Part shown: in pieces, positions 8,696-19,653 of the stretch
Position numbering within the stretch: the stretch's first letter is position 1
How the letters are laid out: each line of letters opens with the position of its first letter
DNA from: a virus
Direction: 5' to 3' (one strand)
Virus record (IMG/VR): IMGVR_UViG_3300044643_000134
Span: 1-23,951 of that record
DNA: 23,951 nt
Position numbers and translations under genes: made by a program
The notes under the pieces: model-generated
What the model was told of the DNA's origin: nothing
The model's database searches: none
What the model saw: only the letters and a program-made list of their open reading frames with translations

Positions 8696-8831
8696 TGTAT
8701 TTGCGTTTAGCTTGTTTATAAATCTTTTTTAGGTTCGTAGTGTATTCGTGTTTTCCTTTGGCAATGTTTACTATCTCACTCACGTTAAAAAAGTCATCCG
8801 TTTTTAAAAGTTCTAATATCTGTGCTATCAT
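8673..8831 (-). CDS. Small helical protein immediately before the tape measure gene
   Basis: 52 aa, MIAQILELLKTDDFFNVSEI through a Lys-rich C-terminus ending RKKDN. The ATG at 8831 overlaps the stop of the 778-aa gene in an ATGA arrangement, and its own stop lies 23 nt inside the tape measure gene, so it is tightly woven into the operon. The HTH-like helical pattern is too short to assign. A small protein here is compatible with a tail-assembly role, but that is position only. It contains one copy of the recurrent motif AAAACACGAAT (read on the coding strand). Confidence 0.65.
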   Translation of the reverse strand: MIAQILELLKTDDFFNVSEIVNIAKGKHEYTTNLKKIYKQAKRKYNGRKKDN

Positions 8832-14156: not shown

Positions 14157-16121
14157 TTAGTGTATAAAATACTGTCCGTAATGAGGATTAACTCCCAACA
14201 CTTCCATTTCGTGGTAACGGATTGCGTCAATGCAATTATGAACTAATATACCATTTGCAAAATACTCATGGCAATCTTCAACCATTATATCATAAACTAC
14301 CTCTTTCCAACTTTCTTCTTCTTCTAAGTGCTGTAGCTTTGCAGTTTGGATGACAATATTTTGAAACTCCGCTGTGTCTTGTTTTATATTCTTTGTTACA
14401 AACTTCACAAACCAATAATCTATATTCTTTATTAATCCAGCATTTTTTACCATGTTCAATATGCCATTTTCTTCCTTCTTCTGATTTGTGCCATTTTTTT
14501 GCTTTTTCAATACCTTTTGCATGGAAGTCTTTAGCCCATTCTTTATTCTCTTTAAACCTTTTTTTAGCTTCAAAACGTAAATGTAATTTAGCTTCAATAA
14601 GATTGAGATTAGATATGTCATTATTTGAGGTATTGCCATCAACATGATGTATATGATAGCCTTTAGGAATTTCCCCTTTGTAATATTTCCAAACTTCTGT
14701 ATGAAGTCTTTTATTTCCCCTACTAAAATATCTTTCGCCTTTATATAATCGATACTCTTTTCCGTTAAATAGTTGTATTGGTATAACGTATTGTTCTTCT
14801 CTAATTTCGATATTTCCTGCCATTTTTCTGTTGTTTTTATTTTATGATTATTAGTACAACACAAATATACAACATTAGTATCGAATAGCATCGAGTATTT
14901 ACTCACTTGTTTCAATCCGTTATTAAAAGTTTTTAACACTCTTTTATAGCCTTCCGATGTTAAAACTAAGTCTCCTACCATTATATCTTTTATTTTTACA
15001 TTTCCATTAATAGTAGTTATTAAAGTGTCTCCAACAAAACAATGGTTATTGAAGTCGATAGGCTTGTTTAAACGAACGCCAGTTTTATCAGTGTCCCAAA
15101 TGTAACCGCGTAATTCTTTGATTAGATTAGTGCTGTTTGACGTTACTAAATACTCTTGGCTTTGCATTATCTGAATTCCGAAGTTTATTGAGTCCTTGCC
15201 TTTTGTAACGCCTTTAATCGTCTTTCCGTACCGTCTAATCTCTTCTATTGACTTAGGCTCGGAGCTGTCCGCATATATCGGAACGCTATACGGTAGCACA
15301 TTGGCAATATCGTTATTTAACATTCCTGTTCTATATATTAATTCATTCAGTATTCGCTTACCATTCCACGTATAAACTTCAACCGCTGCGGTGGGGTCAT
15401 TCGTGTATCCAAAGTCAAGTCCAATTCCTATCAATCTCGCATCACTTGGAATACTATCAATCTGTTTCCAGTTGCTGAATATAACGCCCTCAAGCATTCC
15501 TATTTCACCTAAACCATATACCCTCCACCAATTGCTCCAGTACGTGCTTGTAGCCGCTTTCTCGCGATTCTTTTCTATTTGTTCTACTATGGAGTTGTCT
15601 AAGGCTTCGTTATCCTTGTAGGTAAGAATTATAAAGTCAGCATCGGGTTCGTCTTTTAGTTCGGTGTGAACCCAAAACTCATTAGCTGGATTGAAGTCTA
15701 AAAATACCTCTTTTTTAGTCCGTATAGCAAGTTCATTATAAGATTCAAAAGTTACGTTGTTGCATTCGTTAATATAAAGAACATCACGCCTTGCACCCCT
15801 TAATTTACTTGAATCGTCTGCACTAAAAAACTCAATAAAACTTCCATTGGCAAATTCGTATCTTAAAAGCGACTTATTAAAGCGTTCATCAAAGTAACGC
15901 CCAGTGTCTTTCATAATGCGTAAAAAGTCTTTTAATGCACCTCTACGCAAGTGTGGTATTGTTTCAGCTACTACGCTTATTTCAGTTCGTGGATATGTAG
16001 CAGCCTTTGTTATTAATATCGGTAGGATTCCGTATGTTTTTCCCGCACTTGTTCCTCCTTGAATTATTTTAATCCGTTTTTTTAATGAGTTTATTTTACG
16101 GATTGCTGTCGTTATTATCAT
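14157..16121 (-). CDS. terL: Terminase large subunit interrupted in frame by an intein
   Basis: 654 aa precursor. Exteins: residues 1-360 and 630-654 join to a 385-aa terminase of the Terminase_3/PBSX-like type. Walker A is GGTSAGKT (22-29), the Walker B region VLYINE (114-119) and the ATPase coupling region about 139-146. The RNase H-like nuclease shows LDFGYTND (Asp236), YADSSEPKSIEEI (Asp284) and the final DAIRY motif (Asp632). The enzyme packages DNA into proheads and cuts the concatemer. Residues 361-629 are a canonical intein whose Cys1 follows NNH and whose C-terminal HN is followed by Cys630, two residues before the last catalytic Asp. A separate HNH gene is nested in another frame at 14290-14823. 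The start overlaps the methyltransferase stop (ATGA). Without splicing the nuclease site would be incomplete. Confidence 0.95.
   Translation of the reverse strand: MIITTAIRKINSLKKRIKIIQGGTSAGKTYGILPILITKAATYPRTEISVVAETIPHLRRGALKDFLRIMKDTGRYFDERFNKSLLRYEFANGSFIEFFSADDSSKLRGARRDVLYINECNNVTFESYNELAIRTKKEVFLDFNPANEFWVHTELKDEPDADFIILTYKDNEALDNSIVEQIEKNREKAATSTYWSNWWRVYGLGEIGMLEGVIFSNWKQIDSIPSDARLIGIGLDFGYTNDPTAAVEVYTWNGKRILNELIYRTGMLNNDIANVLPYSVPIYADSSEPKSIEEIRRYGKTIKGVTKGKDSINFGIQIMQSQEYLVTSNSTNLIKELRGYIWDTDKTGVRLNKPIDFNNHCFVGDTLITTINGNVKIKDIMVGDLVLTSEGYKRVLKTFNNGLKQVSKYSMLFDTNVVYLCCTNNHKIKTTEKWQEISKLEKNNTLYQYNYLTEKSIDYIKAKDILVGEIKDFIQKFGNITKGKFLKAIIYIMLMAIPQIMTYLISILLKLNYIYVLKLKKGLKRIKNGLKTSMQKVLKKQKNGTNQKKEENGILNMVKNAGLIKNIDYWFVKFVTKNIKQDTAEFQNIVIQTAKLQHLEEEESWKEVVYDIMVEDCHEYFANGILVHNCIDAIRYHEMEVLGVNPHYGQYFIH
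14290..14823 (-). CDS. HNH homing endonuclease nested out of frame inside the terL intein
   Basis: 177 aa, read two bases off the terminase frame (equivalent to -1), with its own ATG at 14823 and TGA at 14292-14290. The N-terminal part has a strand-rich YRLYKGERYFSRGNKRLHTE segment. The HNH core is GYHIHHVDGNTSNNDISNL, with His59, His60, Asp62, Asn64 and Asn68. A C-terminal zinc finger has Cys139-x2-Cys142 and Cys157-x3-Cys161, followed by an Arg-rich tail. This is the architecture of free-standing or intron-borne phage HNH endonucleases, which cut alleles lacking the element and so spread it. Here it lies wholly inside intein coding DNA and overlaps both splicing halves. A TATATTTG box 39 nt upstream (14862-14869) may serve as a promoter. 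No Shine-Dalgarno site is seen. Confidence 0.9.
   Translation of the reverse strand: MAGNIEIREEQYVIPIQLFNGKEYRLYKGERYFSRGNKRLHTEVWKYYKGEIPKGYHIHHVDGNTSNNDISNLNLIEAKLHLRFEAKKRFKENKEWAKDFHAKGIEKAKKWHKSEEGRKWHIEHGKKCWINKEYRLLVCEVCNKEYKTRHSGVSKYCHPNCKATALRRRRKLERGSL
14862..14869 (-). promoter_or_regulatory. Candidate -7 box for the nested HNH gene
   Basis: TATATTTG on the minus strand matches the Bacteroidota -7 consensus TAnnTTTG exactly and lies 39 nt before the HNH start. There is no TTG at the proper -33 distance, and the octamer can arise by chance in AT-rich DNA. Confidence 0.3.
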
Positions 16122-16771
16122 ACAAACAATTTAGTTTGTGCTGTGTGGTTATTTATTCTTTGCATAGCCTTATCAAAATACTCTTTATCAAGCTCACAAG
16201 CTGTTAAGTCAAAGCCGTAATCGTGACAAGCTATTGCTATTGAGCCACTGCCTAAGTGAGTGTCTAATATTTTGTCGTTTGGTTTTGCGTATTTGTCAAG
16301 TAGCCATTTGTAAAGTGCAACAGGTTTTTGTGTTGGGTGTATTCGTGTTTCTTTGTTTTTCATGTCACCTTGCAACATACCTGCCCATCTAAATTCAAAT
16401 TTTCTTACAGCTGTTTTATGATTTGTCCATGCAAGTTCACAATCTGCAAAGTCATTATCTCCATTTTGTTTATCCCAAACAACCCAGCTCGAGCTATTTG
16501 AATTAGGTATATTTTCAATAAAATGATTAGCTCCCCAAATAATAACTTGTTTTGATACTCTTGTAAGTTCAATAAAATAATCTTTTGATGGTGCTGAACT
16601 ATCCCAATTTTTAGCTGTATATAGTGTAGGTCTTGTTGCCTTTCCTCTTGAATGATTCTTTGCACCATCCTCACCAATCCCATAAGGCGGGTCTACAATA
16701 GCCAAATCAAAATAGTTATCAGGATAGCGAGCCATTAGCTCCATGTTATCTTCATTGGTTATCGTCAGCAT
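16118..16771 (-). CDS. DNA adenine (N-6) methyltransferase, beta-class order
   Basis: 217 aa. The catalytic motif IV DPPY (27-30) comes first, HPTQKP lies at 145-150, and the S-adenosylmethionine motif I region DTHLGSGS (170-177) with CELD (192-195) follows. This order marks the beta group of amino-methyltransferases; the DPPY tetrapeptide usually methylates adenine N6, though N4-cytosine is not excluded. No restriction endonuclease is adjacent, so it is probably an orphan enzyme that protects phage DNA from host restriction or marks it for packaging. It is wedged between terS (20-nt overlap) and terL (ATGA overlap), an unusual place that links methylation to the packaging genes in expression. 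One copy of the recurrent motif lies at 16341-16350. Confidence 0.9.
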   Translation of the reverse strand: MLTITNEDNMELMARYPDNYFDLAIVDPPYGIGEDGAKNHSRGKATRPTLYTAKNWDSSAPSKDYFIELTRVSKQVIIWGANHFIENIPNSNSSSWVVWDKQNGDNDFADCELAWTNHKTAVRKFEFRWAGMLQGDMKNKETRIHPTQKPVALYKWLLDKYAKPNDKILDTHLGSGSIAIACHDYGFDLTACELDKEYFDKAMQRINNHTAQTKLFV

Positions 16772-17174
16772 CTAATTTGAATAAAGGTTGTTCAATGTTC
16801 GTTTGTTCAACTTGCTCTTTTAAGTTGTTTAAACGCTGAGTTATACTTGGATTGTATTGCCCTACCATACCTCCTTCTATTTGGTCTTTGCGTATTTCTT
16901 TGCGTATGCGTGAACAGATGGGAGTATATTCTGAATATCTTTTATCGGTGTTTTTAAAATAGTCCTCAACACATCCTACTTCATCCCAGCAGAATATTTC
17001 AAATCCCTCCATTGTTAAAGGGCATTCAAGTGGCTCTGCTCTTTCTTCAAAGTCTTTACCTCCGTATACATATTTTATTCTTGGGTTCGCCTTTACGTTG
17101 GCTTTATACTTTTCAAATAGTCCGTATAGTTGTTCAGGGCTATCTAAGTTTCTTGGTCTTCCTACTTTTGCCAT
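16752..17174 (-). CDS. terS: Terminase small subunit (DNA-packaging protein)
   Basis: 140 aa. The N-terminus VGRPRNLDSPEQLYGLFEKY and the segments PLTMEGFEIFCWDE, DYFKNTDKRYSEYTPICSRI and EGGMVGQYNPSITQRLNNLK are the conserved pattern of small terminase subunits in Bacteroidota phages. It would recognise the packaging site and load the large subunit. It is the first clear gene of the late operon and overlaps the methyltransferase by 20 nt. A copy of the recurrent motif lies directly in front of the start (17181-17191). The start ATG at 17174 is preceded by an A-rich leader (TAAAAA), as usual in this phylum. Confidence 0.85.
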   Translation of the reverse strand: MAKVGRPRNLDSPEQLYGLFEKYKANVKANPRIKYVYGGKDFEERAEPLECPLTMEGFEIFCWDEVGCVEDYFKNTDKRYSEYTPICSRIRKEIRKDQIEGGMVGQYNPSITQRLNNLKEQVEQTNIEQPLFKLDADDNQ

Positions 17175-17177
17175 TTT

Positions 17178-17285
17178 TTAATTCGTGTTTTTGGCTAATT
17201 TAATACTTTTTTTTATAGCTTCGCTTTTATACTGCATATACCACTCAGCATTTAAACCTTTAAATACAAGGTTAGTCCCGAACAT
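17178..17285 (-). CDS. Possible 35-aa protein just before terS
   Basis: The frame runs MFGTNLVFKGLNAEWYMQYK to a C-terminus KLAKNTN with the stop three nt before the terS ATG. GAGGGAAG lies about 6 nt ahead of the ATG and could act as a ribosome site, which is rare in this genome. Composition is protein-like, but nothing else supports it, and a 28-aa frame (17252-17338) overlaps it in another phase. It may be a leader peptide for terS or a chance frame. Confidence 0.35.
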   Translation of the reverse strand: MFGTNLVFKGLNAEWYMQYKSEAIKKSIKLAKNTN

Positions 17286-17459
17286 AACACTTCCCTCTGC
17301 GACCACTTCTTATTTATTCGTGTTTTCACACTTGGCATTTTGGCTCACTTGTTATTTTAACCTTTCGGTATGCAGTACCCGTTGTTAAGCGTAAAACATT
17401 GCGGGATTTGTTTTAACAAGCGTTTATGTCGAGAGTTGTTTTTGGTAACGCAGTTCAAC
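17286..17459 (-). other. Unassigned noncoding stretch with nested inverted repeats
   Basis: No convincing gene is present. On the plus strand CTTGTTA (17348-17354) and TAACAAG (17414-17420) are a 7-bp inverted pair enclosing GGTA/TACC (17367-17370 and 17376-17379) and CCCG/CGGG (17378-17381 and 17402-17405). The two inner stems compete for two bases. A copy of the recurrent motif is at 17316-17326. The segment could be a structured leader RNA, a packaging-site element or the remnant of an insertion. Confidence 0.4.
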
Positions 17460-17480
17460 TTATACAACTGCTATGTAAAT

Positions 17481-17515
17481 AAAAAACCCCATCGTCTGTT
17501 CAGGTCGGATAGGGT
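17481..17515 (-). terminator. Intrinsic terminator in front of the late operon
   Basis: Minus-strand ACCCTATC (17515-17508) pairs with GATGGGGT (17493-17486), eight pairs with one G-U, around a 14-nt loop and is followed by TTTTTTATTT. The loop and the inner side of the 5' arm also belong to an alternative hairpin (see the attenuator entry). Confidence 0.8.
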
Positions 17516-17563
17516 CATATAGTGATTTAAAGAAATCCAATAAAACATCTAACCTGAACTTAG
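17481..17563 (-). ncRNA. Candidate attenuator leader or about 80-nt small RNA
   Basis: Behind a well-placed promoter (17569-17600) the transcript would begin near 17563 and soon contain GUUCAGGUUAGAU (17559-17547). This can pair with AUCCGACCUGAAC (17510-17498): 8 Watson-Crick pairs, one U-G, one mismatch and three more pairs. The second strand of that hairpin contains the loop and the AUC end of the 5' arm of the terminator, so the long hairpin and the terminator compete. Two readings are possible. One is an antiterminator/terminator switch that controls entry into the late operon; the other is a stand-alone terminated small RNA. Both are inference from base pairing; no family is recognised. 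Confidence 0.55.
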
Positions 17564-17568
17564 ATACA

Positions 17569-17600
17569 CAAATATAAAACATTATTTCTTATTCTCCAAA
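17569..17600 (-). promoter_or_regulatory. Bacteroidota-type promoter before the attenuator
   Basis: TTTG (17600-17597), a 20-nt spacer and TATATTTG (17576-17569) match the TTTG-N19-21-TAnnTTTG consensus. It overlaps the 3' end of the 56-aa gene and points toward the terminator and terS. The spacer is unlike that of the three early promoters. Confidence 0.65.
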
Positions 17601-17752
17601 CTAATTAAACGCTTTTCTTTCATTCGTGTTTTCCTTAGTTGTCTTAAACTTTCAGTAACAGTAATGTCAGTTAGGTTAGTTTTAATCCAATCGTTCGTTA
17701 AATCGCTTGAATTAATGTTTAAAAACGCTATTGCTTGAGTTAGCCTTGACAT
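17582..17752 (-). CDS. Small protein, last gene of the middle operon
   Basis: 56 aa, MSRLTQAIAFLNINSSDLTN through a basic C-terminus (RKTRMKEKRLISLENKK). The ATG directly follows the stop of the 79-aa gene with no gap (TAAATG), which favours a real, coupled gene. It is a mixed helical protein with no family I can name. The recurrent motif is present at 17622-17632, encoding K-T-R-M. The promoter in front of the late leader lies within its last codons. Confidence 0.6.
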   Translation of the reverse strand: MSRLTQAIAFLNINSSDLTNDWIKTNLTDITVTESLRQLRKTRMKEKRLISLENKK

Positions 17753-18508: not shown

Positions 18509-19051
18509 TTATTTTATTAATTCGTAATCCTCGTTTTTGTAGTCCTCATAATGCTCTCCGACTTCTATTTTTAAACTATCCTTACAATACTTTAACGTTT
18601 GCCATACTGATTTGAAACTAATACCCGTGCATTTTTGTATTTGGCGTGTACTCATTCCTGTATCTCGGTAAAGTTCATATAATAGTTTGTCGTACCAATG
18701 CCAACTGTTTACTGTTTCGTTTATTTTTACTTCTAATTGCTTTTGAGCGTTCGTCTTTTCATATGAGCTACTTTCATCAACTAACTGAATTGCCTCTGTT
18801 ATATCGACTTTTTGAAGCCTTTGTTTAGATTTCTCAAAGTCATAATACATATTTCTTAAAACAACCCACACAAACCCCTTGTAAATAGTTCCGTTGCGGT
18901 AAAATCTTTCTTTGTTTTCGTATTTTGCCAACTTCAAATACATCTCTTGAACAATGTCCTCTGCTAAACTATACTCGCCAAATGACCGCACTACCTTAAT
19001 CCAGTGTTTATGGTCTGCGTATAAGTCATTCAAAAACCGATTAGCATCCAA
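18509..19051 (-). CDS. Sigma-70-like (ECF-type) phage transcription factor
   Basis: 180 aa. Residues about 8-55 (DLYADHKHWIKVVRSFGEYS, AEDIVQEMYLKLAKYENKER) resemble sigma region 2, including the DIVQEMYLKL core-binding helix. Residues about 118-160 (DKLLYELYRDTGMSTRQIQK, GISFKSVWQTLKYCKDSLK) form a region 4 helix-turn-helix. Such proteins direct host RNA polymerase to phage promoters. The position just upstream of the late operon suggests a late-gene activator (inference). The start is odd: a stop codon lies immediately before a TTG at 19051 and no ATG is available for 36 codons, so translation likely begins at TTG and depends on coupling with the upstream gene, which it overlaps by 11 nt. 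A small HTH regulator without sigma activity is the alternative. Confidence 0.75.
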   Translation of the reverse strand: MDANRFLNDLYADHKHWIKVVRSFGEYSLAEDIVQEMYLKLAKYENKERFYRNGTIYKGFVWVVLRNMYYDFEKSKQRLQKVDITEAIQLVDESSSYEKTNAQKQLEVKINETVNSWHWYDKLLYELYRDTGMSTRQIQKCTGISFKSVWQTLKYCKDSLKIEVGEHYEDYKNEDYELIK

Positions 19052-19579: not shown

Positions 19580-19609
19580 CAAATATAATAATACTTTTTA
19601 ATATAACAA
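19580..19609 (-). promoter_or_regulatory. Early promoter P1 (conserved-spacer family)
   Basis: TTG (19609-19607), a 19-nt spacer beginning TTATATTAAAAAG, and TATATTTG (19587-19580) on the minus strand. AACAATTAAA follows at 19576-19567, around the expected transcription start. It drives the zinc-knuckle/sigma-like gene group starting at 19556. Confidence 0.8.
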
Positions 19610-19612
19610 CAA

Positions 19613-19648
19613 AATAATTAAAAAAAAGCGGAATTTTTACGTTCCGCC
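19613..19648 (-). terminator. Rho-independent terminator of the early operon
   Basis: Minus-strand GCGGAA (19647-19642) and TTCCGC (19633-19628) form a perfect 6-bp stem, extended by one G at the base, with an 8-nt loop and a run of eight or more T. It lies a few nt after the stop of the Cro/CI-like gene and directly ahead of promoter P1. Confidence 0.92.
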
Positions 19649-19653
19649 TTAAA

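Follow-up and report, generated by a model that had tools for sequence, protein, structure and literature searches.

In the window (the whole 23,951-base stretch that was analysed, IMG/VR virus record IMGVR_UViG_3300044643_000134), we identified a conserved leader RNA upstream of terS, called RNA1, which combines covarying, mutually complementary hairpins with an intrinsic terminator, and this is established at the level of the sequence. Its parts, their order, two alternative pairings and their covariation are all evident from sequence, and the best-supported function is that of a promoter-proximal transcription attenuator acting in cis, which we hold to be the probable one by a slight degree.

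Almost every gene of the record lies on the minus strand. The early part, at high coordinates, encodes SSB, ERF, NinG and a protein weakly resembling sigma factors, and it is followed on the minus strand by terS, a methyltransferase, terL with a putative intein and more late genes. RNA1 and a second, larger RNA, called RNA2, lie between the early genes and terS (Table 1).

Table 1. Features of the RNA1/RNA2 region in the window.
Feature	Positions	Strand	Basis
Promoter: TTTG (-33 type) 17600-17597, N20, TATATTTG (-7 box) 17576-17569	17569-17600	minus	sequence pattern; box kept in relatives
RNA1, predicted leader/small RNA of ~85 nt, start near 17564	17481-17565	minus	conservation; start inferred from box position
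Hairpin P1, ATCTAA-GTTCAGG-TTAGAT, loop GTTCAGG 17559-17553	17547-17565	minus	sequence and loop covariation
Middle hairpin, GATTT-CTTT-AAATC	17524-17537	minus	folds; most relatives also have a hairpin at that place
Intrinsic terminator T, GACCCTATC 17516-17508 / GATGGGGTT 17493-17485, U-tract 17486-17481	17481-17516	minus	fold and conservation
RNA2, non-coding RNA of ~260 nt, structured and with a pseudoknot; the core model matches at 17433-17277	17213-17472	minus	alignment and covariance model
terS, first gene behind RNA2	16752-17174	minus	phrog_606 terminase small subunit, E 6.8e-10; start 38 nt past the RNA2 3' end
Whole cassette: 56-aa ORF, RNA1 and RNA2, between the 79-aa gene and terS	17176-17752	minus	comparison with L009, L014 and L017

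The promoter, the hairpin arm and the intrinsic terminator described in an initial annotation of this DNA are present at the positions given there, on the minus strand. The TAnnTTTG box of the promoter matches the -7 box of Flavobacterium psychrophilum sigma-A, which spans -12 to -5 (PMC9723704), so the start would fall near 17564, and P1, whose region reads ATCTAAGTTCAGGTTAGAT directly after the promoter, would stand at the extreme 5' end of RNA1. The terminator loop consists of 14 nt, CGACCTGAACAGAC (17507-17494), and contains CCTGAAC (17504-17498), to which the P1 loop GTTCAGG is complementary. The initial annotation had paired a 13-position arm, GTTCAGGTTAGAT (17559-17547), with 17510-17498 inside the terminator; 12 of the 13 positions do pair, but the partner is mostly the terminator loop. 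It overlooked that the complementarity is centred on two loops, which could kiss, and it also overlooked the larger, structured RNA2 between the terminator and terS. Judged from the window alone, the RNA1 signal is modest: the promoter pattern has three matches against 1.38 expected, and the z scores are -2.0 for the 86-nt fold and -2.2 for the terminator. We regard RNA1 as real because its parts are conserved and its loops covary across phage loci.

When we searched viral contigs with TerS, the 56-aa ORF and conserved DNA patterns as queries, 20 distinct RNA1 units were found, a sample that represents few independent lineages on metagenomic contigs. All phage loci in which RNA2 is accompanied by sufficient upstream sequence have the promoter box, the 5' arm, the terminator and the U-tract (the upstream part of L221 is lost at the contig end). 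The -33 TTTG is absent from some phage loci, and the TAnnTTTG box stands directly before RNA1 in every eligible locus. All 20 units have the terminator stem and a U-tract of at least six T; L234 is without a clear P1 stem. The loops measure 6-7 nt in P1 and 8-14 nt in T. We observed ten loop words, namely GTTCAGG(T), GTCAGAA, GTCGCA, GTCAAG, GTAGCAG, (CAT)GAGAAG, CATCCAC, TCCACAC(T), CTCGTAC(T) and CTCCACT(T), and each of them pairs with its own terminator loop. The summed pairing length was 74, against 40.0 ± 2.9 for shuffled loops and 41.3 ± 4.7 when the loops were dealt among the types, where none of 50,000 trials reached the observed value. Since MAFFT misaligns the loops across all RNA1 lineages, covariation was counted on an alignment of group II and by loop matching. 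In that alignment of six close relatives (L236-L241), both partners had changed in 6 of 7 loop-loop pairs, none was broken and all counted cells were paired, the aligner having gapped two of the seven pairs in three sequences. The group II terminator stem was maintained through G-C, G-U and A-U changes. The loop sequences differ and yet their pairing persists, indicating that the interaction is under selection.

We then compared the pairings that compete with the terminator. The P1 5' arm pairs with the 3' side of the terminator at -31.0 kcal/mol, against -17.7 ± 3.7 kcal/mol for shuffled arms (2 of 2000; 7 lineages), and the mirror pairing, between the P1 3' arm and the 5' side of the terminator, was strong in some lineages and overall not significant (225 of 2000; one sequence per lineage). 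According to the initial annotation, the two structures exclude each other, and compensatory changes absent from homologous sequences would have spoken against the idea. Such changes do occur in the loop words, the group II pairs and the P1 5' arm, and exclusion holds for the longer duplex, which uses the upper terminator stem and so leaves no room for T, but not for the loops, which can kiss with both stems intact. The nested-fold energies of the duplex and of the two-hairpin fold lie within about 2.5 kcal/mol of each other in 6 of 14 sequences, and in the two window-type sequences the duplex is the more stable fold, by about 5 kcal/mol, as a switch would require. The two-hairpin fold has an advantage of 4-8 kcal/mol in L227, L232, L234, L237 and L239 and of about 3 kcal/mol in L241, so that read-through in these six would need help. 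An intrinsic terminator lies between promoter and gene, together with a conserved pairing that excludes it, strongest for the loop words and the P1 5' arm and weak for the P1 3' arm. The calculated energies and the pairings would fit a bistable attenuator that passes through a kissing intermediate.

In the attenuator that we propose, a sigma-A promoter would start RNA1, and P1 would fold at once. If P1 stays closed, the terminator would form and an RNA of about 85 nt would be released. Opening of P1 would free its 5' arm and loop to engage the loop and the 3' side of the terminator, and the 3' arm of P1 would engage the 5' side; with T blocked, the polymerase would go on to transcribe RNA2 and the operon that follows, with terS and late genes in the window and replication genes in other phages. 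The loop-loop kiss would be a likely intermediate or a locked form. Transcription start, termination and read-through are what we infer from these sequence features. We favour the attenuator because of the ten complementary loop words, the group II covariation, the pairing of the P1 5' arm, the near-equal folds and the U-tracts, and because RNA2 and the next gene come directly behind RNA1 and no further TTTG/TAnnTTTG site lies between RNA1 and terS in the window, which would make reading through T one possible route into the late operon. It is also favoured because RNA2 copies on Chryseobacterium plasmids occur without RNA1, a short leader standing in its place in three of the four copies read. 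The switch idea of the initial annotation appears largely right in this respect. An attenuator and a small RNA of about 80 nt, which had been offered there as alternatives, do not exclude one another, the terminated product being a predicted RNA of about 85 nt.

Several observations count against the attenuator in cis: the two-hairpin fold is favoured in the six sequences named above, the pairing of the P1 3' arm is not significant, L234 is without a clear P1 stem, and the lineages are few. In addition, a purely cis-acting element has no need of loop words that are exchanged as whole units on an unchanged scaffold. In six relatives, CTCGTAC, TCCACAC and CTCCACT are found on near-identical scaffolds in a mosaic pattern, which suggests selection for specificity, as would be expected if RNA1 were a trans-acting small RNA. 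The terminated RNA would then accumulate, and its loop would bind either the read-through transcript or a nascent RNA1 of matching type. In this way it would control termination or expression in a phage that enters the cell or already resides there, as in P4 immunity or Gifsy-1 IsrK, and the loop words would define specificity groups. The layout, with a short terminated RNA and a read-through form, is also like that of IsrK (PMC4825925). However, no target beyond chance was found in the window (best run 15, against 14-18 for shuffled RNA1), and the loop words are without a systematic partner in RNA2, and we consider such a trans function the main rival of the attenuator, though a somewhat unlikely one. 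The full-loop complementarity, which is compatible with both stems, might instead belong to a stable structural or decoy RNA, in which the 5' and terminator hairpins kiss within or between molecules and protect the ends or form a multimer; termination would then be unconditional, and RNA2 would come from other transcription. Kissing between molecules is known for the phage RNAs ROOL and GOLLD (PMC12286853), but such an RNA would have no use for the extra pairing between the P1 5' arm and the 3' side of the terminator, and in phages RNA2 always lies directly behind RNA1; this reading is quite improbable.

The weak window statistics would by themselves agree with a plain promoter and terminator whose hairpins are complementary by chance, but for the complementarity chance is ruled out by the covariation over ten loop words, and we regard this reading as extremely improbable. 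A broader proposal, which we consider unlikely, is an RNA-based immunity or incompatibility system of flavobacterial phages, in which RNA1 would act as attenuator and also, in trans, as the RNA that gives this attenuator its specificity. Its fast-diversifying, covarying loops would set the groups, and it would gate expression of RNA2, a new pseudoknotted RNA that occurs in phages as well as plasmids and would have a separate function.

Terminator/antiterminator attenuators such as trp leaders, riboswitches and the T-box have two exclusive folds, one of which is a terminator. RNA1 is like them in this, but neither an aptamer nor a leader peptide is conserved in it, the gene that it would regulate is not uniform, and its switching sequence is hypervariable, with complementarity as the one property that is maintained. 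The lambda PR' leader is a short promoter-proximal RNA with the terminator tR' before the late operon, and it needs protein Q and DNA sites. As a short, promoter-proximal terminated RNA before a late operon, RNA1 of the window resembles it, whereas the lambda leader does not rely on covarying hairpins, and the module described here is also found upstream of early genes; in group II, Erf/DnaB operons follow. ColE1 RNAI/RNAII and phi29 pRNA kiss between molecules through loops of about 4-7 nt whose complementarity is kept as the sequence varies. The short, fully complementary and variable loops of RNA1 are similar, but both partners lie in one RNA, one of them inside the terminator, and since the phage of the window encodes TerS and TerL, a pRNA is not expected.

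IsrK, a small RNA of the Salmonella prophage Gifsy-1, has a phage promoter, a short, intrinsically terminated form, a read-through form and alternative structures at its locus (PMC4825925), all of which have counterparts in RNA1, whose read-through form would extend into the next genes. The effect of IsrK is on the translation of an ORF that lies downstream (PMC4825925), whereas RNA1 precedes RNA2 and not an ORF, comes from a different phylum and shows no detected sequence relation. In satellite phage P4, self-complementary leader elements (seqA, CI RNA) before the replication genes control premature termination (PMC4825925), and group II RNA1 is likewise a self-complementary leader upstream of replication genes. 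The complement of seqA, however, lies in the separate downstream CI RNA and that of RNA1 in its own terminator; RNA2 was considered as a P4-type partner of the RNA1 loops and rejected, its complementarity to them not being systematic. IsrK and P4 seqA/CI are functional relatives, and membership of RNA1 in either is not supported.

Rfam gave no match in the window at the gathering threshold; below it, the best hits on the RNA1 strand were RybB and trpB (E 0.3-1.1), and a permissive search that included the ROOL/GOLLD models gave nothing convincing for RNA1 or RNA2, although a missing Rfam match does not prove that they are undescribed. Open-access papers contained no description of RNA1 or RNA2, and BLAST in the phage collection returned no homologue of either. 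The pattern GTTCAGGT-N-ACCTGAAC has at least 120 matches in viral contigs, and a descriptor scan gave no RNA1-like unit with promoter, P1 and terminator among the matches listed, as expected if the words vary. RNA1 adds a testable RNA switch candidate in several lineages of Bacteroidota phages, where few phage regulatory RNAs have been described, and its hypervariable yet strictly complementary words make structure cleanly separable from sequence. It also exposes RNA2, a complex RNA without an Rfam relative that occurs on phages and Chryseobacterium plasmids.

The RNA2 model comprises 50 pairs in 18 sequences, with standard pairs in 98.6% of the cells and 18 of 50 pairs changing on both sides, and the helices 53-60/129-136 cross 105-113/250-258 (positions of alignment A4). 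Its covariation score was 0.277, against 0.115 after shuffling, and no slid version scored above 0.055; the structure was drawn by eye and with RNAalifold from the same alignment, so that the contrast with the slid controls is partly expected, and the shuffles are fairer, though blind to relatedness. A covariance model built without plasmids found RNA2 on three Chryseobacterium plasmids (E 3e-19 to 5e-18). Few bacterial genomes carry RNA2: 3 of 148 within the genus and 2 of 196 within the order. From the promoter type and these plasmids we infer a flavobacterial host. In plasmid copies L229 and L230, a TATCTTTG box stands immediately before the leader, which contains GGGCTC-T6/7; L246 shares that stretch, and its resemblance to a terminator 3' half is only suggestive. 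Plasmid RNA2 (L228-L230, L246) lies before a WYL-domain gene in L228 and L229, and in L230 it follows a divergent AAA ATPase gene; the context may be one of defence or maintenance. RNA2 resembles ROOL and GOLLD (PMC12286853) as a structured phage-borne RNA without assigned function, but is much smaller. A 35-aa ORF across its 3' end has lost the ATG in relatives, indicating a non-coding region. Conserved cores of self-splicing introns, HDV-like and other ribozymes were sought by eye, and these identities were unsupported; ARAGORN found no tRNA or tmRNA in RNA2.

The initial annotation had tied the switch to terS and the late operon, and this link was not supported by comparison of the loci. 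In the close relatives L009, L014 and L017 the cassette is absent and the gene before it abuts terS, so the 56-aa ORF, RNA1 and RNA2 form an insertion of about 575 bp. In group II (L232-L241), the RNA1/RNA2 unit precedes small genes that lead to an Erf-like annealing protein and the DnaB helicase, and the first gene behind RNA2 varies even inside group I (L222, L226). Based on these replication-gene contexts and the varying next gene, the unit is not specific to late control. The same spot between the 79-aa gene and terS apparently holds a GIY-YIG-like gene in L006 and L011 (by eye) and a short ORF in L008, and it may be a cassette hotspot.

Several further features were observed in the window. 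The terL gene (14157-16121, minus strand) contains an intein-like insert, for which PF14890 scored slightly under its cut-off, and an HNH endonuclease ORF (14290-14823, minus strand) overlaps this insert in a different frame. The sigma-like protein (18509-19051, minus strand; 180 aa; phrog_1740, E 1.7e-4) is encoded upstream of the late operon and is a possible candidate for a late-gene activator. The 9-mer AAACACGAA, often AAAACACGAAT, is polar and strongly over-represented on the minus strand throughout the window (for example at 8744, 12968, 17181, 17316, 17622, 19776, 22938 and 23725), and AAAACACGAAT with at most one mismatch has 23 matches against 2.0 expected. It occurs 281 times on the coding strand and 22 times on the opposite strand in loci of terS relatives (419 kb), and once in 69 kb of group II. 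It sits in all reading frames and also at cassette junctions; whether it might be a Chi-like or a recombination/packaging motif we pose as a question. A strong intrinsic terminator, AAGGCGGAACGTAAAAATTCCGCTT followed by a T-run, lies at 19625-19650 (minus strand), with similar terminators in L007, L016, L027 and L029, and immediately after it stands a promoter-like TTTG-N22-TATATTTG (19580-19613, minus strand).
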